Shown piece after piece: positions 37,503 to 46,225 of a stretch of 64,000 bases of DNA. Position 1 is the first letter of the stretch. Each line of letters starts with the position of its first letter. Where the stretch lies: positions 1 to 64,000 of the forward strand of contig CAMJUL010000005.1 in the NCBI GenBank assembly GCA_946408995.1, read 5' to 3'. The notes beneath the pieces are model-generated. The model was not told the DNA's origin. It was given only the letters and a program-made list of their open reading frames with translations, and searched no databases. The position numbers and the translations under genes were made by a program. The stretch comes from an uncultured Clostridia bacterium. GTDB taxonomy: Bacteria > Bacillota > Clostridia > Christensenellales > Aristaeellaceae.

Positions 37503-38651
37503 TTATCCGGGAAAAACCGTTGTGCCGGACGCAATATAGTTGCGCTGCACCCGTTTGCTGATCCCGCAGACCACTTCGTAGCCGATGGTGCCGATCATTT
37601 CGGCCATCTCATCCGCCGTCAGTTCAAGATTGCCGCTTTTCCCGATCAGGATCACATCCGTACCGATGTGAACATTCGATATTCCCGTCACGTCCACCAT
37701 GATCTGGTCCATGCAGACCCGGCCGAGCAACGGGGCCTTCTGACCGTTGATGAGCACATACCCAAGGCCGGAAAGCCTTCTTGAATAGCCGTCGGCGTAT
37801 CCCGTGGGAATGGTCGCGACCCTTCGCGGCGTATCCGCCAGGTAGGTCCGCCCGTAGCCAACGGATTCTCCGGGCCTGACAGACTTGATCATGGACACGA
37901 CAGAATGCCATTCCAGCGCAGGGCGGATCCCTTCGGGCAGGAGAACACATGCATCCGGCTTCAGGCCATACATCATGATGCCAAGGCGAACGATGGAATC
38001 GTATTTGCTTTTGTATCGTAGCCCGCCCGCCGTGTTCATGCAATGGATCATTTCAAGGTTCAGGTCCTGTGTCCGGTCCGCAACGGCCTCGAATTTGCGG
38101 ATCTGACCTTCGGTAAAGATCCTGTCACTTTCACGGTCACTGTCCGCACAGCACAGATGGGTGAACAGCCCTGTCAGTTTCAGCGGACCACGGGCAGTCT
38201 GGCGAAGAACCCTTTCGCACATTTCAGGATCATCCGCGTCCAGGCCGATCCGGTTCATGCCGGTGTCCAATGCCATCTGACAGCGGATAGGCAATCCCGT
38301 GGAGGCGAGCATGCGGGTATAGTCCTCATCCAGAAGCGCCTGATCCAGTTCAAGATCCATCAGCCTTGCCGCTTCATGCACCGGCGTGTATCCAAGAATG
38401 AGGATGGTTCCGCCAATGCCTTCTTCCCGAAGGCCGGCGGCTTCCTCGATATTGGAGACCGCGAACAAACGAATGCCGTGATTCCAAAGGAAGCGGGCTA
38501 CCTGCCGATCGCCATGCCCATACGCGTCTGCCTTGACGACGGCCATGATCCGATTCGGGCGGCCCAATGCTTCCTGGTAAAAGCGGATATTGTTTACAAT
38601 TACGGAAGGGTCCACATTGACCCAGGACCGTTTGATGAACATCGCAGCCAT
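37503..38651 (-). CDS. alr: Alanine racemase
   Basis: AVVKADAYGHGDRQVARFLW...DTGMNRIGLD...VGYGRTY...YADGYSRRLS. Confidence 0.95.
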   Translation of the reverse strand: MAAMFIKRSWVNVDPSVIVNNIRFYQEALGRPNRIMAVVKADAYGHGDRQVARFLWNHGIRLFAVSNIEEAAGLREEGIGGTILILGYTPVHEAARLMDLELDQALLDEDYTRMLASTGLPIRCQMALDTGMNRIGLDADDPEMCERVLRQTARGPLKLTGLFTHLCCADSDRESDRIFTEGQIRKFEAVADRTQDLNLEMIHCMNTAGGLRYKSKYDSIVRLGIMMYGLKPDACVLLPEGIRPALEWHSVVSMIKSVRPGESVGYGRTYLADTPRRVATIPTGYADGYSRRLSGLGYVLINGQKAPLLGRVCMDQIMVDVTGISNVHIGTDVILIGKSGNLELTADEMAEMIGTIGYEVVCGISKRVQRNYIASGTTVFPG

Positions 38652-38805
38652 TTCCTTTCCGTTTACAGAAAAACAATCCGAGCAGGGAGTCCCCCGTCGG
38701 CCGTTTCAAATCTGTCCTACAAAGTCTATCATTAATCGAAAGGCAAGTCAAATCCTTTCCAAGTTTCCCGGTTCATGCTATAATCCGCATACAGGAGGTG
38801 ACGAA

Positions 38806-40275
38806 ATGGACAGAAAACGGTATCTGAAGCAAATTGAGCAGGTGATCCGGGACGGGAAATACCATGCGGATTGGGAAAGCCTTGCGGAGCATCCGATCCC
38901 CGCCTGGTACAGGGAACTGCGGCTTGGGATTTTTCTGCACTGGGGCCCCTTCTCCGTGCCGGCATATCATGATTGGTACGCAAGAAACATGTATATCCAG
39001 GATTCCCCGGAATACAGGCACCACCTGCAGGTCTACGGGGATCACAAGGAACATGGCTATAAATCCTTTATCCCCGCGTTTACAATGGAGCAGTTTTCCC
39101 CCGCTCAATGGGTAGACCTGTTCCGCGCGGCAGGCGCGGATTATATCGTTCCCGTGGCGGAGCATCATGACGGCTTTCAGAATTACAGGAGCGAATTGAG
39201 CGCTTGGAACGCCGTTGAAAAAGGACCCCACAGAGACATTATGGGGGACCTTCTGCTGGAAGGGGAAAAAGCCGGGATGATGAGAGGCGCGTCTTCTCAC
39301 CGGGTGGAGCATTGGTGGTTCCTTGGCAACGGCAGGGAGTTTGACAGCGACGTCAACAGCTGCCAAGACAAGGACGATCTGTACTGGCCCGCCCGCAAGG
39401 AGCCCGCCAACCAGCATGACCTTTACGGAGAGCCTGCTCCGGATGAGGCCTTCCTGGAGGATTGGCTGCTTAGAAGCTGTGAAATCGTCGACCGGTACCA
39501 TCCCAGGGTTTTTTATTTTGATTGGTGGATCCAGCACAGCGCGGTCAAGTCCTGGCTGATGAAATTTGCGGCCTATTATTTCAACCGGGCCGAAAGCTGG
39601 GGCGGATGCGTGATCAATTACAAGCACGATGCCTTCCCCTGGGGGATCGGGGTGCCGGATATTGAACGCGGACAGTTTGCCGAGGCCAAGCCTTTCCTTT
39701 GGCAAAGCGATACCAGCGTGATGCGCAATTCCTGGTGCTATTCCCGGTTCGCCGATTATAAGGCTCCGATCGAGATCCTGTGGGATCTGATCGACGTGGT
39801 CAGCAAAAACGGACGACTGCTCCTGAACTTTGGACCTCGTCCGGACGGGACCCTGACGGAAAAGGATCTGGAGATCCTTGAAGTTCTGAAGAACTGGATG
39901 AGGATCAACGACGAGGCCATTCACGCAGCAGGGCTGTGGCGCGTTTCCCAGGAAGGGCCCACCCGCGTTGAGGAGGGACAGTTTGCCGACAGTAAAAGCC
40001 GCGGGTTCACCAGCGATGATATCCGGTTTACTTGCCGCGGACCGTACATATATGCCATTGCCATGCGTTTTCCGGAAAACCGAGAACTGTGTATCCGCAG
40101 CCTGAGGAAAGCGGACGCAAGCCGGCTTCCCCTTTGGCACGGCATCATTCAGGAAGTGGAGGCCCTCGGATACGGTCCCGTCAAGTGGCGCAGGGACGAA
40201 GAAGGACTGCATGTGCGTTTCAAGCAGGAAGATGCCGGGGATTATCCCGTCGTCATCCGCGTCAAAACCACATAA
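38806..40275 (+). CDS. Alpha-L-fucosidase (GH29), no signal peptide seen
   Basis: WYRELRLGIFLHWGPFSVPAYHDWYARNMY...DYIVPVAEHHDGFQNYRSELSAWNAVEKGPHRD...GRLLLNFGPRPDGTL; ORF opens at 38590, AGGAGGTGACGAA-ATG at 38806. Confidence 0.9.
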   Translation: MDRKRYLKQIEQVIRDGKYHADWESLAEHPIPAWYRELRLGIFLHWGPFSVPAYHDWYARNMYIQDSPEYRHHLQVYGDHKEHGYKSFIPAFTMEQFSPAQWVDLFRAAGADYIVPVAEHHDGFQNYRSELSAWNAVEKGPHRDIMGDLLLEGEKAGMMRGASSHRVEHWWFLGNGREFDSDVNSCQDKDDLYWPARKEPANQHDLYGEPAPDEAFLEDWLLRSCEIVDRYHPRVFYFDWWIQHSAVKSWLMKFAAYYFNRAESWGGCVINYKHDAFPWGIGVPDIERGQFAEAKPFLWQSDTSVMRNSWCYSRFADYKAPIEILWDLIDVVSKNGRLLLNFGPRPDGTLTEKDLEILEVLKNWMRINDEAIHAAGLWRVSQEGPTRVEEGQFADSKSRGFTSDDIRFTCRGPYIYAIAMRFPENRELCIRSLRKADASRLPLWHGIIQEVEALGYGPVKWRRDEEGLHVRFKQEDAGDYPVVIRVKTT

Positions 40276-40285
40276 TGCGCCCATC

Positions 40286-41326
40286 TCAGACGCCGGCTGA
40301 ACCGGCGTCTGTTTTTTCTTGCCCGAATTCCGGTCCGTCTGTCAGAAAAGCGTCCCGCCCCTCATCCAATTCCAGCAGGATGTCTGTGACCTCGCTCAGG
40401 GTTTCAGCCTGATTGATTCGGGTACGAAGCCTGGCGCAGCCTCGTCTGCCGGATATATACCAGGAAAAATGCTTGCGCATTTCAAGCACGGCACGATGCT
40501 CGCCTTTCCAGGCAGACATTTCCTCCGCCTGGCGAAGAGCGGTTTGCAGGATTTCTTTATAGGACGGCGGGGTCCACGTATTCCCTTGGAGGAAGGCCTT
40601 GATCCGGGAAAACACCCATGGATTCCCAAGCGCGGCCCTGCCCACCGAAAGGCCGTCACAGTTCGTTGTCCTCAGCATCTCCAGGGCGCTTTCTCCGCTG
40701 TCAATGTCCCCGTTGGCATAGACCGGGATATGGACAGCGTTTTTGACCATGGCGATCTTTTCCCTGTCCGCTTTTCCGGCGTAAAACTGACTGCGATAAC
40801 GGCCGTGAACCGTCAGGCAGGCCGCGCCGTTCTCTTCTGCAGCCCTGGCGACCTCCACAGCCGTAAAGCAGCTATCGTCCCATCCAAGCCGCATTTTGAC
40901 CGTTACGGGAAGGACCGTGGCTCTCACGCATGCCTCAACGATTTTTCCGCACAGGGAAGGGTCTTTCATCAGGGCGCTCCCGTTTCCCCCGCCGGTCACC
41001 TTTTGGGCCGGACAGCCCATGTTGATGTCGATCGCGCTGAACCGTCCAAGCCCCGTCAGAACATCTGTGGCCATCGACATCCATTTAGGGTCCCGGCCGA
41101 AGATCTGCACGGCAACGGGACCTTCGCCGGGAAGGGTTTTCAGCAGGTTCCCATACGCTTCCAAGGCCTTCGGGGCGGTTATATATCCCTGAGCGCTGAC
41201 CATTTCGGTGGTGGCTCCGTCACAGCCCTGTTCAAAGCAAAGACGCCTGAAAACACAGTCGGTGATCCCCGCCATGGGTGCGAGAACCACGGGATTGAAA
41301 GATGCTTTCTTTGTGCCTGCGGTCAT
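40286..41326 (-). CDS. dusB: tRNA-dihydrouridine synthase (FMN enzyme)
   Basis: VLAPMAGITDCVFRRLCFEQG...INMGCPAQKVTGGGNGSAL...VYANGDIDS. Confidence 0.93.
   Translation of the reverse strand: MTAGTKKASFNPVVLAPMAGITDCVFRRLCFEQGCDGATTEMVSAQGYITAPKALEAYGNLLKTLPGEGPVAVQIFGRDPKWMSMATDVLTGLGRFSAIDINMGCPAQKVTGGGNGSALMKDPSLCGKIVEACVRATVLPVTVKMRLGWDDSCFTAVEVARAAEENGAACLTVHGRYRSQFYAGKADREKIAMVKNAVHIPVYANGDIDSGESALEMLRTTNCDGLSVGRAALGNPWVFSRIKAFLQGNTWTPPSYKEILQTALRQAEEMSAWKGEHRAVLEMRKHFSWYISGRRGCARLRTRINQAETLSEVTDILLELDEGRDAFLTDGPEFGQEKTDAGSAGV
40287..40317 (+). terminator. Fucosidase terminator embedded in the 3' end of dusB
   Basis: CAGACGCCGG-CTGAA-CCGGCGTCTG-TTTTTT. Confidence 0.85.
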
Positions 41327-41859
41327 GGATTTACAACCTCTCGCTGCGTTAAGTTCCGGATAATCCAGCGTCCGTTTTCCCTGGCCAGGATGGCGTCATA
41401 GCGGATGGTTTGCCAGGCCGGGGGCGCAATGCCAAGGCCCATTTCCATCGCCTGTGTGCGCACGGAAGCTTTCAGCCTCCCGTCGATCCCGCGTACGGAT
41501 TCCACAAAAACAGCGGTCGCCGTATCATCCCAGGGCCAGCACCATACCCGTTCAAGACTCAGTCGGTGATCAATGCCCTTAATATCATAATAATTCGTAT
41601 ACACGGAACCCTGGGTGTCCATGTTTTTGAGCATGGTATCCCTTTCAAGGTATGATGCCGAAAAGTAATTGTTCAGGGTCTCAAGGTCGCTGTTCATCAT
41701 GATCACCTGGGTCCGCCTGGCCATGCCGTCCTTGAGAATGACATAGATGTTGCTTGCGTTCATGGAAAAGTAGAAAACAGTGACGAGGATTCCGAGGACA
41801 GCCACGAGTACCAGCAGCCGTCCCGCAACAAACAGAACGAACCGTCTGAAATACTTCAT
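41323..41859 (-). CDS. Uncharacterised membrane-anchored protein
   Basis: N-terminal TM segment LFVAGRLLVLVAVLGILVTVFYF; start overlaps preceding CDS, stop overlaps dusB start. Confidence 0.7.
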   Translation of the reverse strand: MKYFRRFVLFVAGRLLVLVAVLGILVTVFYFSMNASNIYVILKDGMARRTQVIMMNSDLETLNNYFSASYLERDTMLKNMDTQGSVYTNYYDIKGIDHRLSLERVWCWPWDDTATAVFVESVRGIDGRLKASVRTQAMEMGLGIAPPAWQTIRYDAILARENGRWIIRNLTQREVVNP

Positions 41860-42761
41860 GCTTCCTCCTCCCCGTTTTCAAACATTTCCACCAGCCTGGC
41901 GCCGACCTTCAGGCTCAGTTCCGGAACCAGGTACTTCATATCGTCAGGCAGATATCTGCCGAATTCCTGCACTTCAAAGGTGAGGTCTCCCTGATAACGG
42001 ATATCCCGCAGGCCCAGCATGCACTGCTTCCAGTCGATGGAGCCAAAGAACGGAAGCAGATGCTCATCGCTGTTCCCGTGGTTGTCCTGTACATGGAGGG
42101 CTTTGAGACGGTGGGAGATCATGTTCAGATTCTGTCTGTGACAATTCGGACCGGTCAGGTTGGCATGGCCGAAATCATAGCAGATCCCGGCGTGCTCGTC
42201 ATCCCCAAAGGCGTCACACAGGTCAACCAGCTCCGCGATGCCCGCACAGTAGACCCGGCCTGCGGGCTGTCCTGCCCGGTACTCAAAATCGTTTTCCAGG
42301 GCGATCCCGATCCCAAGTCCGGCAGCCATGTCCACAAGGGGCGTAAAATACGCCAGATTGGCGTTGCGGACAGCGCATACATCCGGTCCGAAAGAAGAAA
42401 CCGTAAAGGGATGGGTTACGGCCCAGCGGGCCCCCAGAAGGGCTGTTCCTTCAACGGAACGGCGGATCAGTTTTTCCATTTCCCGGCCCACTTCCGTTTC
42501 CCTCTCCTGTTCAACCGGATAATACGGAAGATGGCTTTGATTGAATCGGATGCCATACCGGGCAGCCAGATCCCCAATGGAAAGGACATATTCCTTCCAT
42601 CGGTCACCCCGCATGGGCGAGTCCGGATTCAGACTCATGCAGAAATTGATATCCAGCACCCGATAACCGGCCTGAGCGCATTCCATAATGCTTTTCTCCA
42701 CCGGAAGGCGTTTTCTGCCGGGACCAAAGGCGCATATGTTGGTGGACGTAGAAATCTCCAT
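41856..42761 (-). CDS. Sugar phosphate isomerase/epimerase (xylose isomerase-like TIM barrel)
   Basis: IALENDFEYR...AGICYDFGHANLTG...ALHVQDNHGNSDEHLLPFFGSIDW. Confidence 0.85.
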   Translation of the reverse strand: MEISTSTNICAFGPGRKRLPVEKSIMECAQAGYRVLDINFCMSLNPDSPMRGDRWKEYVLSIGDLAARYGIRFNQSHLPYYPVEQERETEVGREMEKLIRRSVEGTALLGARWAVTHPFTVSSFGPDVCAVRNANLAYFTPLVDMAAGLGIGIALENDFEYRAGQPAGRVYCAGIAELVDLCDAFGDDEHAGICYDFGHANLTGPNCHRQNLNMISHRLKALHVQDNHGNSDEHLLPFFGSIDWKQCMLGLRDIRYQGDLTFEVQEFGRYLPDDMKYLVPELSLKVGARLVEMFENGEEEA

Positions 42762-42797
42762 GGTGTCTCCCGCCTGCGTAAAATATCCTTTGAAGGT

Positions 42798-44138
42798 TCA
42801 ACGGTTGTTCCGGGCGAATTGCTCAAGCATCCCTGTCAGGTCTTCCTCCATCATCTGTGCGGTTTCACTCGCGGACAGGTCCTGATCGAGCATTTCGGAG
42901 ACATCGTTCATGATGGAATAGTAGAAATCCGCGGAAGGACCGACTGTAACAGAGCGCATCATGACCGGGGTAAGGGCAAGCTGCTCCGCACCCGCAGCAT
43001 ATTGCGGATGCTGAAGGATGAAGGAGCGCCAGGTATCCGTTTGCAGGGCGGATCCCACGGCGGGGATGTATCCCGCCTTCATGGCAAATTCCGCCTGCGC
43101 TTCAGGGCCGGTCAAAAAACGGATCACTTTCCAGGCCGCTTCGCGCTTTTCCTGCCCGTGATCGAACATGACCAGGCAGCTTCCGGATACAGTAGCGCCG
43201 GAAGAGGATGCTTCATTGACCTTTGGATAGGCACAGACCCCCAGCTCAAACCTGCCGCCGATCTTGTTTTCAAGGCTTGCGATGGTCGAGGAGGATGCCG
43301 TCATGATCAGCAATTTGCCGGCGGCGAACTCGTCCGTGGAAGCTTCCCTGTTCGCAAGCGCGCCGGTGTCGTACAAATCCTTCCAAACCTGCAGGAAGGT
43401 CTCCAATGCGCCGTTTTGGATGCAGTCCAGGCGCTCTGCCATGCCGGCTGACCCGTTTTCGCAGTCGACCAGGTAGCTGCCAAGCTGTCCAAGCCAGTTG
43501 GCAAGAGAAGGCGTATTGGGAATACACGCGTAAACCGTGGCATCCTCCTCCAGGGGGAATGCGGCAATCCGACCGATCTCCTGCAGCGTTTCAGGCGCCG
43601 GAATCCCCAAACCGTCAAGGACCGTTTTGTTGTAATACGTCAGGGTGGTAGAAGTCGCAAAGGGGACGCCCAGCTGTACTCCGTCCACATTCCAGTTCTG
43701 CAGCGCCGAAGGCAGATAGTCGCTCAGGTCCGTATCCGGCGCCTCCTGCAGGAGCTCGTCGACGGTGTACGCAGCGTCTGCCGCGCCATATACGATTTTG
43801 CCGGTAGCGTCCAGCTGCATCACATCAGGCAGATGCTCCGTATCCCCGGAATTGAGCATGCTGTTCATTTTTGTCACGGAATCGACGTATTTCCCTTGAT
43901 AAACCAGGGTAACATGGATCCCTTCCTCGGCGCCGGTCGTTTCGTTATAGCGTTCCACAATGCGGGAAAGCGCTTCGCCCGCTTCCTCGGACATGGAATG
44001 CCAGAAGGTCACATCGACAGTCGTTTGGGCAAGACCTGAAAAGGGAAGAGCGCTTGTCAGCAAAAACAGTGCGGAAAAGAGGGCGGAAAGGACGTGCTTT
44101 TTCATGTTCGGGTTCCTCCTTGTCAAATTGAAATGCAC
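42798..44138 (-). CDS. Extracellular solute-binding protein (family 1, UgpB-like)
   Basis: Signal peptide, VDVTFWHSMSEEAGEALSRIVERYNE...VPFATSTTLTYYNKTVLDGLGI...RFLTGPEAQAEFAMKAGYIPA. Confidence 0.9.
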   Translation of the reverse strand: MHFNLTRRNPNMKKHVLSALFSALFLLTSALPFSGLAQTTVDVTFWHSMSEEAGEALSRIVERYNETTGAEEGIHVTLVYQGKYVDSVTKMNSMLNSGDTEHLPDVMQLDATGKIVYGAADAAYTVDELLQEAPDTDLSDYLPSALQNWNVDGVQLGVPFATSTTLTYYNKTVLDGLGIPAPETLQEIGRIAAFPLEEDATVYACIPNTPSLANWLGQLGSYLVDCENGSAGMAERLDCIQNGALETFLQVWKDLYDTGALANREASTDEFAAGKLLIMTASSSTIASLENKIGGRFELGVCAYPKVNEASSSGATVSGSCLVMFDHGQEKREAAWKVIRFLTGPEAQAEFAMKAGYIPAVGSALQTDTWRSFILQHPQYAAGAEQLALTPVMMRSVTVGPSADFYYSIMNDVSEMLDQDLSASETAQMMEEDLTGMLEQFARNNR

Positions 44139-44181
44139 AGGCTAAATAACGTAAATCAGGCGAAAAAGAGGAAAGCAGCGC

Positions 44182-45015
44182 TCATCCGGACACCGCGCCC
44201 TCCGTAAGGGAATGACTGATCAACCGTCTGACCAGAATAAAGAGAAGCACGGGCGGCAAAATGGCGGCAACGGTCCCGGCCAGGATGACCTGGTAATTGG
44301 TGTCTTCGGTGCTGGTCAGCATCGAGATGCCCACCTGGACTGTACGCATCCGGTCGCTGTTGGTGACAAGCAAGGGCCACAGATAAGCGTTCCATTGGGC
44401 GACAAAGGCCTGCATGAACAGCGTTACCCATACCGGCCGGCAGTAGGGCAAAAGCACCGAAAACAGAAAACGCAGATCCGAGCAGCCGTCCAGAAAGGCC
44501 GCTTGTCTAAGGGCCAAGGGAGCTTGGGAAAACGCCTGGGTAAGCATGAACATCTGGCTGGCACCGGCAAAGGACACGATGGCGATCCCGAGCCACGTAT
44601 CCGTCAAAGCAAGTCTTGAAACCGTCTGATAGTTTGTGACGATAACGGTATCGGCAGGGATCATCATGGTTCCGAGCAGGAAAACAAACAGCGTCTTTTT
44701 GAAACGAAAATCAAAATAGGTAAAAGCATAGGCCGCGAGCATGGCGGAGAGCAGCTTTACGATGCATACCAGAAGGGTCGTTCCTGCACTGTTGAAAAAA
44801 TACCTCCCCATAGGTGCCAAAGTAAAAACGGCCTCATAGTTGGACAGATTCAAAAAACTGTCCGGAAAAAGGCGGGGAGGCAGGCGTGAAAACTCGTCCG
44901 CGGTTTTGAAGGAACCGAGAAAAGCGTACACGCAGGGAAAGACCACCAGCAGGCAAAGAAAGATGCGGAGCAGAAGAAGAGCGGCGTCCGGCAGGGAAAA
45001 AGAATGCTTTTTCAT
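44182..45015 (-). CDS. Carbohydrate (CUT1) ABC transporter permease, UgpE-like
   Basis: EAA-type loop ALRQAAFLDGCSDLRFLFSVLLPYCRPVW; ATGA overlap with upstream permease; ORF opens at 45237. Confidence 0.88.
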   Translation of the reverse strand: MKKHSFSLPDAALLLLRIFLCLLVVFPCVYAFLGSFKTADEFSRLPPRLFPDSFLNLSNYEAVFTLAPMGRYFFNSAGTTLLVCIVKLLSAMLAAYAFTYFDFRFKKTLFVFLLGTMMIPADTVIVTNYQTVSRLALTDTWLGIAIVSFAGASQMFMLTQAFSQAPLALRQAAFLDGCSDLRFLFSVLLPYCRPVWVTLFMQAFVAQWNAYLWPLLVTNSDRMRTVQVGISMLTSTEDTNYQVILAGTVAAILPPVLLFILVRRLISHSLTEGAVSG

Positions 45016-45890
45016 CCGATCCCCTCCCCTTTGTTGCTTTGCAGGCTGACCAAGGTAAACAGGAGCGTCAGGAAGAAGCTGACGATCGCGATGCAGGCGG
45101 CCATTGCGTAATTGCCTGATCCGTATCCTGTGGTATACATCAGATAGATCAGCGTGGTGGTTGCACGGCTGGGTCCTCCTTTGGTGATGATCATCACCGG
45201 CCCGGAGGTCATCAAGGCAAGAATGGTGTTGGTGCATACGGAATACAGGATGGTCGGCCGGATCAGCGGAAGCTCAATCAGAAGCAGGATTCGCATCCCG
45301 CCTGCGCCGTCGAGCCGGGCGCTGTCGACCACGGAACGGTCCACATTCCGGAACGCGGCCTGAAACAACAGGAATCCAAAGCCGATCCCCATCCAAACGG
45401 TAACCATCAGGATGCCGTAGAGGGCTGTGTTCCGGTCCTCATACCAGCGGACGCCGATGCCTAAAAAGGCATTCAGCCAGCCAATCGTAGGGTTGAGAAG
45501 CACCCGGAAGGTCATGGAGGCGGCACTCATGGACACGGCCATGGTGGAAGCGATCAGCGTCTGAAACAGGCCGTTCCCCGGACGGGAATTGGAAAAGAGC
45601 TTCCCCAGGCAGAGGGCGATCAGCAGAGTCAGCGGGACATTGATGGCTGTCAGACGAAGGGTATTGCCCAGTGCTGCGGAGAACTCCCTTCTGGAAAACA
45701 GGTACCTGTAATTGTCAAGCCCGGAAAAGCCTGTGATCTCTCCCATGAAATTGACGGTCGAAACGGAAAAAAGCGCGGTTTTCAGGAACGGGTAATAGAC
45801 AAACACCACAGAAAAAAGCAGGATTGGAAAAAGATACAGGTACGCGCGCGCCTGTTCCCGTTTTTTGTGCCGTTTCAAGGACATAAGCAT
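45012..45890 (-). CDS. Carbohydrate (CUT1) ABC transporter permease, UgpA-like
   Basis: VVDSARLDGAGGMRILLLIELPLIRPTI EAA loop; ATG at 45890 behind GGAGG. Confidence 0.9.
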   Translation of the reverse strand: MLMSLKRHKKREQARAYLYLFPILLFSVVFVYYPFLKTALFSVSTVNFMGEITGFSGLDNYRYLFSRREFSAALGNTLRLTAINVPLTLLIALCLGKLFSNSRPGNGLFQTLIASTMAVSMSAASMTFRVLLNPTIGWLNAFLGIGVRWYEDRNTALYGILMVTVWMGIGFGFLLFQAAFRNVDRSVVDSARLDGAGGMRILLLIELPLIRPTILYSVCTNTILALMTSGPVMIITKGGPSRATTTLIYLMYTTGYGSGNYAMAACIAIVSFFLTLLFTLVSLQSNKGEGIG

Positions 45891-45902
45891 GCGTACCTCC
45901 AT

Positions 45903-45933
45903 AAAAAAAATCTTCCGAAAAAACTTCAGAAGA
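45903..45933 (-). terminator. Riboswitch expression-platform terminator
   Basis: Minus strand TCTTCTG-AAGTTTTTT-CGGAAGA-TTTTTTTT, directly followed by ATGGAGG RBS. Confidence 0.75.
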
Positions 45934-45953
45934 CGGAAAGCGGCCAAAACCGC

Positions 45954-46066
45954 ATTCTTCTTTCATCCAGACTGTACTGTCGGCTCCGGAATTGGACCGG
46001 ATCGGCCAAAAGGCTCGCGGGCTAACACCGCCGGTGGGGACTTTCACCCCGCCCTGAAGAATTCTT
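45954..46066 (-). ncRNA. FMN riboswitch (RFN element)
   Basis: Minus strand AUUCUUCAGGGCGGGGUGAAAGUCCCCACCGGCGGUGUUAGCCCGCGAGCC...GAUCCGGUCCAAUUCCGGAGCCGACAGUACAGUCUGGAUGAAAGAAGAAU; conserved RFN blocks and a closing P1 stem. Confidence 0.95.
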
Positions 46067-46225
46067 TAATTGCGATTATTATAGCCGCAGCGCCCCTCCC
46101 TGTCAATATCAACCGGTGTCCGGTCCGCTCTTTTTACCCCCTTTTCCCGCACGCACTTTACAAAAAGGGGCCGGGAGGATATGATAGGGGCAGGAAAATC
46201 ATCCAGACGAAAAGGAGCTGAGATT

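Follow-up and report, generated by a model that had tools for sequence, protein, structure and literature searches.

Flavin transporters published for bacteria comprise RibU, RibM/PnuX, RibN, ImpX, RfnT, RibXY, RibZ, RibV and RfuABCD, and none of them is described in these sources as CUT1/UgpB-like (PMC4418817, PMC6593275). Here we analysed a 64,000-nucleotide stretch from the genome of an uncultured Clostridia bacterium (contig CAMJUL010000005.1, positions 1 to 64,000; called the window throughout), in which a flavin mononucleotide (FMN) riboswitch, the RFN element, precedes the genes of an ATP-binding cassette (ABC) importer of the sugar-type CUT1 group: two permeases and a solute-binding protein (SBP). 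Judged from genome comparison, this operon probably encodes an importer of flavin, most likely of FMN, which would replace an RFN-RibU(-riboflavin kinase) module.

RibU shares with this system the control by RFN, flavin import in riboflavin auxotrophs and, in sister genomes, the very same position behind RFN. However, RibU is the S component of an energy-coupling factor (ECF) transporter without homology to the CUT1 SBP or permeases, and is here often found beside riboflavin kinase. RfuABCD of spirochaetes is set apart, by description and Pfam assignment, by another type of SBP and an ATPase of its own. The SBP of RfuABCD is BMP/PnrA-like. RfuABCD resembles the present system as an ABC importer that an FMN riboswitch can control (PMC4418817). 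Similarly, RibXY of Chloroflexi is an ABC importer behind an FMN riboswitch in an operon without an ATPase gene (PMC3766115), but is ThiXY-like and described as a riboflavin importer, whereas the SBP of the window belongs to SBP_bac_8/SBP_bac_1; this separation is again by description. The nearest relatives in sequence and fold are UgpABCE and the Thermus dinucleotide (U3G)-binding protein, whose phosphate-holding Tyr/Ser/Ser/Tyr set is kept (PMC12718374), although the glycerol-holding Glu, Arg and Trp pair are replaced here, the operon carries no ATPase gene and it is under RFN control. Uptake of FMN has precedents, since RibU of Listeria can import FMN and FAD (flavin adenine dinucleotide; PMC9973259) and a need for host FMN has been inferred for rickettsiae (PMC5615194). 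A search of open-licence papers returned neither a CUT1 flavin transporter nor a dedicated FMN importer of CUT1 type; judged by that literature, what appears to be new is an FMN importer of the CUT1 group, together with free-living gut bacteria that have no riboflavin kinase and rely on such an importer.

Conservation of the RFN-linked importer unit

The RFN element that a sequence-only reading had noticed on the minus strand was confirmed by the covariance model RF00050, which gave a full-length, untruncated match (model positions 1-138) of 115.7 bits for a gathering score of 66.2 (E 2.9e-26). It is the single RFN of the window genome (3.5 Mb, 97% complete). A terminator hairpin is present downstream of the aptamer as expression platform and abuts the ribosome-binding site, within a few bases of where that reading had placed it. 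Terminator-like hairpins were found 3′ of the aptamer in 27 of the 28 RFN-linked leaders examined (window counted), and in many leaders of relatives the ribosome-binding AGGAGG itself forms the 3′ strand of the hairpin. One locus (L157:6465-6359, genome G273) carries a shortened RFN of 93.9 bits, joined almost directly to permease 1 and without terminator hairpin, possibly by decay or with switching by another mechanism.

Homologous loci were located by tblastn; longest-open-reading-frame calls gave long antisense frames in these GC-rich genomes. Among the 309 genomes of the family, 40 (the window genome being one) encode an SBP homologue of 47-64% identity, and these belong to 10 of 50 genera. 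Carriers with named records are mostly metagenome-assembled genomes (MAGs) of ruminant-gut Clostridia, for example RUG13460, RGIG6132 (sheep omasum) and a Christensenellaceae MAG from red deer. The survey of RFN elements upstream of UgpAB-like genes suggested by the sequence-only reading showed the pairing to be kept in 28 genomes, across genera: upstream sequence is intact at 37 loci, with RFN directly 5′ of permease 1 at 28 and not at the other 9, three further CUT1 loci being truncated and outside this count. The permease 1 orthologues behind RFN in other genomes are 48-72% identical. On a tree of concatenated permease and SBP sequences, the RFN-linked loci are monophyletic (SH-aLRT 98), with one RFN gain; RFN was apparently acquired once in these CUT1 loci. 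Genera are interleaved on the same tree, which suggests horizontal spread. A search of plasmids returned only distant SBPs, below 60% identity.

About half of the related loci have a gene for a triosephosphate isomerase (TIM) barrel protein, and dusB and a gene for a 178-aa protein directly follow it in the window genome only (they lie ~3.5 kb further on in G005). The conserved unit is thus RFN, permease, permease and SBP. Accordingly, we rejected the TIM gene as an essential part. The proposed link from flavin supply to tRNA modification through DusB did not hold, dusB being a member of the operon in one genome only, and its place in a flavin-tRNA regulon was rejected. An open reading frame of ~800 aa following the TIM gene in G001, G003 and G005 was also rejected as a core component, since it is absent elsewhere and one of similar size in G015 is unrelated. 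In three loci of the same genus (L039, L041 and L042) the TIM gene is followed by a conserved ~800-aa protein with CxxC repeats, probably secreted.

Riboflavin auxotrophy and apparent displacement of RibU and riboflavin kinase

Members of the family are, by their gene content, unable to make riboflavin: lumazine synthase (RibH) was found in 0 of 28 family genomes (controls 14/14 positive) and riboflavin synthase (RibE, Lum_binding) in 0 of the 40 CUT1 genomes (controls 11/14 positive). In relatives without the CUT1 system, the gene right behind RFN is mostly that of a RibU-type ECF S component. With a profile (A1) built from such RFN-linked RibU proteins, a match was obtained in 39 of 40 relatives without CUT1 versus 5 of 40 CUT1 genomes (Fisher p 7e-16, with related genomes treated as independent). 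The five RibU-positive CUT1 genomes either have a CUT1 locus without RFN (G333, G335 and G338) or two RFNs, one for each system (G329 and G349). The profile gave no match in the window genome at E 1e-10, and the proteins of the operon are not of the ECF type. We observed exchange between RibU and CUT1 within genera g8, g12, g27, g31, g33, g39 and g49, and these recurrent swaps are better evidence than the Fisher p-value. Nearly all carriers have one RFN per genome, located on the CUT1 operon. Six CUT1 genomes of g31 have neither RFN nor RibU, and the CUT1 system is the only candidate importer recognised there.

The flavokinase domain PF01687 followed a related pattern. It was absent from 29 of 40 CUT1 genomes, the window genome and its genus included, versus 2 of 40 RibU genomes (p 3e-10, with the same treatment of related genomes), and from 10 of the 15 CUT1 genomes of high quality. 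FAD synthetase was present in all 28 genomes tested. RibF of the window genome and its kin is a stand-alone FAD synthetase of ~200-220 aa without kinase domain, ending ~36 residues past the FAD synthetase domain with its HxGH and SST motifs intact; its retention would be explained by the need of FMN importers for FAD synthesis. In nine RibU relatives (G006, G035, G043, G053, G055, G059, G073, G085 and G086) the kinase gene adjoins RFN-RibU. Hence the displaced unit was often riboflavin uptake together with riboflavin kinase, and FMN uptake would make both unnecessary. Two RibU-bearing relatives, G020 and G021 (the latter 99% complete), have no PF01687 domain, and their RibU may import FMN.

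The binding protein and the proposed substrate

An AlphaFold2 model of the SBP from ten homologues (pLDDT 81, pTM 0.78) was nearest to the structures of UgpB, of Mycobacterium tuberculosis UgpB with glycerophosphocholine and of the Thermus dinucleotide-binding protein. The nearest solved relatives by sequence profile agreed with this fold, their ligands being G1P/G3P, glycerophosphocholine and a dinucleotide; the score of the SBP against the UgpB equivalog model, 91.5 bits, is far under the cut-off of 411. In UgpB, phosphate is held by Tyr64, Ser143, Ser266 and Tyr342, residues common to glycerophosphocholine- and dinucleotide-binding proteins and not to glucose-binding ones, while the glycerol part is held by Glu88, Arg393, Gly303 and Trp188/191 (PMC12718374). 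In profile alignment the four phosphate residues correspond to Tyr73, Ser152, Ser271 and Tyr346 of the SBP (counted from the ATG at 44105) and Gly303 to Gly308, but Glu88, Arg393, Trp188 and Trp191 give way to Ala100, Tyr395, Pro196 and Pro199, so that the glycerol readers are replaced. The phosphate set was conserved in every SBP homologue examined, and in none of the seven other SBP-like proteins of the window genome were all four residues present (three in one of them). These residues are in keeping with a ligand that carries a phosphate but has another tail, possibly an aromatic one.

A simple model can be proposed. The SBP would capture FMN outside the cell and the two permeases would carry it in, driven by an ATPase of the MalK type whose gene lies outside the operon. 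Sharing of one ATPase is common among CUT1 systems, and seven MalK-type matches (OB domain) were found elsewhere in the window genome, one or another of which may serve this importer. Intracellular FMN would then bind RFN, the terminator would form and the operon would be switched off, and at low FMN transcription would read through, a direction taken by analogy from known RFN switches. The cell would thereby receive finished FMN, and FAD synthetase alone would suffice for FAD. The CUT1 module would have taken the place of the ancestral RFN-RibU(-riboflavin kinase) module in the same bacterial family. FMN is the most likely substrate because the kinase domain is missing, RibF is a FAD synthetase only and the phosphate residues of the SBP are conserved. 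The sequence-only reading had raised an undescribed flavin importer, to which RFN pairing across genera and replacement of RibU in riboflavin auxotrophs now lend support; FMN itself it had not foreseen.

Several points weigh against this model. A flavin substrate is deduced from draft MAGs, where absences may be gaps, though they are repeated across species. PF01687 is kept in 11 CUT1 genomes and missing in 2 RibU genomes, so that kinase loss is no strict mark, and its absence was scored by that domain, no search being made for an unrelated (e.g. CTP-dependent) riboflavin kinase. Other ECF S components are encoded in the window genome, one of which could import riboflavin without RFN. Moreover, RFN-less members, of which some adjoin genes for fucose isomerase and aldolase, keep the same phosphate residues; these residues are thus supporting evidence and no proof of FMN.

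An importer of riboflavin, equivalent in function to RibU, with FMN made by an unrecognised kinase, would also account for the RFN control and the displacement of RibU, and riboflavin would be usable in the 11 CUT1 genomes that kept PF01687. We consider it rather unlikely, given the loss of that domain in 29 of 40 carriers while FAD synthetase stays, and the invariant phosphate-binding residues of the SBP. Resemblance of the SBP to a dinucleotide-binding protein, uptake of FMN and FAD by Listeria RibU (PMC9973259) and a weak match of the TIM barrel to CbiR would suit import of FAD or of several flavin nucleotides, perhaps processed by the TIM barrel. The FAD synthetase found in all genomes tested would be needless if FAD were imported whole, and half of the loci have no TIM gene, which makes this a distinctly slighter prospect than riboflavin import.

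The other proposal of the sequence-only reading, a sugar importer with no more than a link to flavin status, is unlikely because several genomes would then be left without recognised flavin uptake. In its broader form, a sugar or polyol importer under flavin control with the flavin importer encoded elsewhere, it can draw on the CUT1 type, on the other ECF S components and on the neighbour genes of early-branching RFN-less members: in g20 a DeoC/LacD aldolase, an iron-dependent alcohol dehydrogenase (Fe-ADH) and L-fucose isomerase, and in L146 an aldolase and a Zn-ADH. Yet the one RFN of a carrier is nearly always on the CUT1 operon, RibU was repeatedly lost exactly there, and the RFN-linked units have no recognised sugar catabolic genes except the TIM gene, itself often lost. 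We regard this as the least probable of the alternatives to an FMN importer, which remains our preferred reading.

The earliest-branching CUT1 members lack RFN and have catabolic neighbour genes. In the RFN-less g20 loci (L183:3-2379 and L188) the Fe-ADH is glycerol-1-phosphate-dehydrogenase-like, and L146, a Lachnospiraceae MAG, has an RFN-less CUT1 operon with TIM, aldolase and Zn-ADH genes. L146 also carries an FMN riboswitch on the minus strand (12293-12175; promoter 12335-12307, 11/12; terminator 12163-12144), on the opposite strand to and convergent with the end of the CUT1-TIM-aldolase-ADH operon, and with no plausible gene behind it. This RFN may drive an FMN-controlled antisense RNA, in which case high FMN would switch the operon on. 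The origin of the importer can be read in two ways: either a former sugar importer was adapted to flavin, or handling of flavins is already the role of the older operons. In C. scindens, which converts riboflavin to lumichrome, high riboflavin induces a set of genes that includes an aldolase and an alcohol dehydrogenase (PMC12934955). This likeness of aldolase and ADH, which is by description, and the L146 RFN favour, as a lead, the flavin-handling older operons; the older relatives of the CUT1 importer may belong to flavin breakdown operons.

Layout of the operon and implications for the family

On the minus strand, RFN is followed by permease, permease, SBP, TIM barrel, 178-aa protein and dusB, an order proposed from the sequence and upheld by Pfam and NCBIfam matches. 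The gene set is that of a CUT1 ABC importer (3.A.1.1), with PF00528 twice and an SBP matching PF13416/PF01547. UgpA, UgpE and UgpB are the best NCBIfam matches of the permeases and SBP, each under the equivalog cut-off, while DusB (326.1 bits) is above its own of 293.3. Start codons of the first three genes were read from the sequence (45890, 45015 and 44105). Of the spacing described earlier, the 36-nt gap between SBP and TIM genes and the 4-nt overlaps stand, including those at the TIM/178-aa and 178-aa/dusB junctions; the gap between permease 2 and SBP is 76 nt, and 43 nt only with a GTG start. In the TIM barrel, putative metal ligands (E156, D196, H199, H223 and E263 among others) were invariant in 22 homologues, and its match to CbiR is to a cobamide-remodelling phosphodiesterase.

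Features of the FMN riboswitch-CUT1 operon in the window
Feature	Position	Strand	Remarks
Sigma-70-type promoter, TTGACA-17-TATAAT	46078..46106	-	consensus 12/12; match to consensus only; 5′ of riboswitch
FMN riboswitch aptamer, RFN element (RF00050)	45951..46065	-	covariance model match
Intrinsic terminator hairpin, then T8	45910..45934	-	11 pairs, 3 G-C; abuts GGAGG of permease 1
Permease 1, UgpA/MalF type, PF00528	45012..45890	-	likeliest ATG 45890, after GGAGG
Permease 2, UgpE/MalG type, PF00528	44182..45015	-	4-nt overlap with permease 1
SBP, UgpB-like, PF13416; proposed FMN-binding protein	42798..44105	-	likeliest start 44105
TIM-barrel protein, xylose-isomerase-like/AP-endonuclease-2 family, PF01261	41856..42761	-	
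178-aa protein, no family match, one apparent N-terminal membrane helix	41323..41859	-	
dusB, tRNA dihydrouridine synthase; incidental last gene	40286..41326	-	TIGR00737

Next to the operon, an alpha-L-fucosidase family protein is encoded on the opposite strand (38800-40275, plus), and an alanine racemase highly similar to the serine racemase domain of VanT is encoded at 37503-38651 (minus). NiCo riboswitches lie ~2.5-3 kb past the SBP gene in four g31 genomes (L165:5954-5877, L166:807-886, L168:8441-8361 and L172:7550-7485).

If the proposed function is correct, the operon would represent a new class of flavin transporter, in which a CUT1 (sugar-type) importer was turned to the uptake of a vitamin cofactor, probably in its phosphorylated form. 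We lean, by a little, towards the further view that this free-living gut group consists of obligate FMN scavengers, lacking riboflavin synthesis, uptake and kinase, in which the imported FMN would itself be the regulator. Combining RFN with patterns of absence can reveal a non-homologous replacement that annotation alone would call a sugar transporter. The model bears on vitamin-sharing models that count only riboflavin and RibU-type importers, and on culturing, as it predicts that uncultured ruminant-gut Clostridia would depend on FMN and not on riboflavin.

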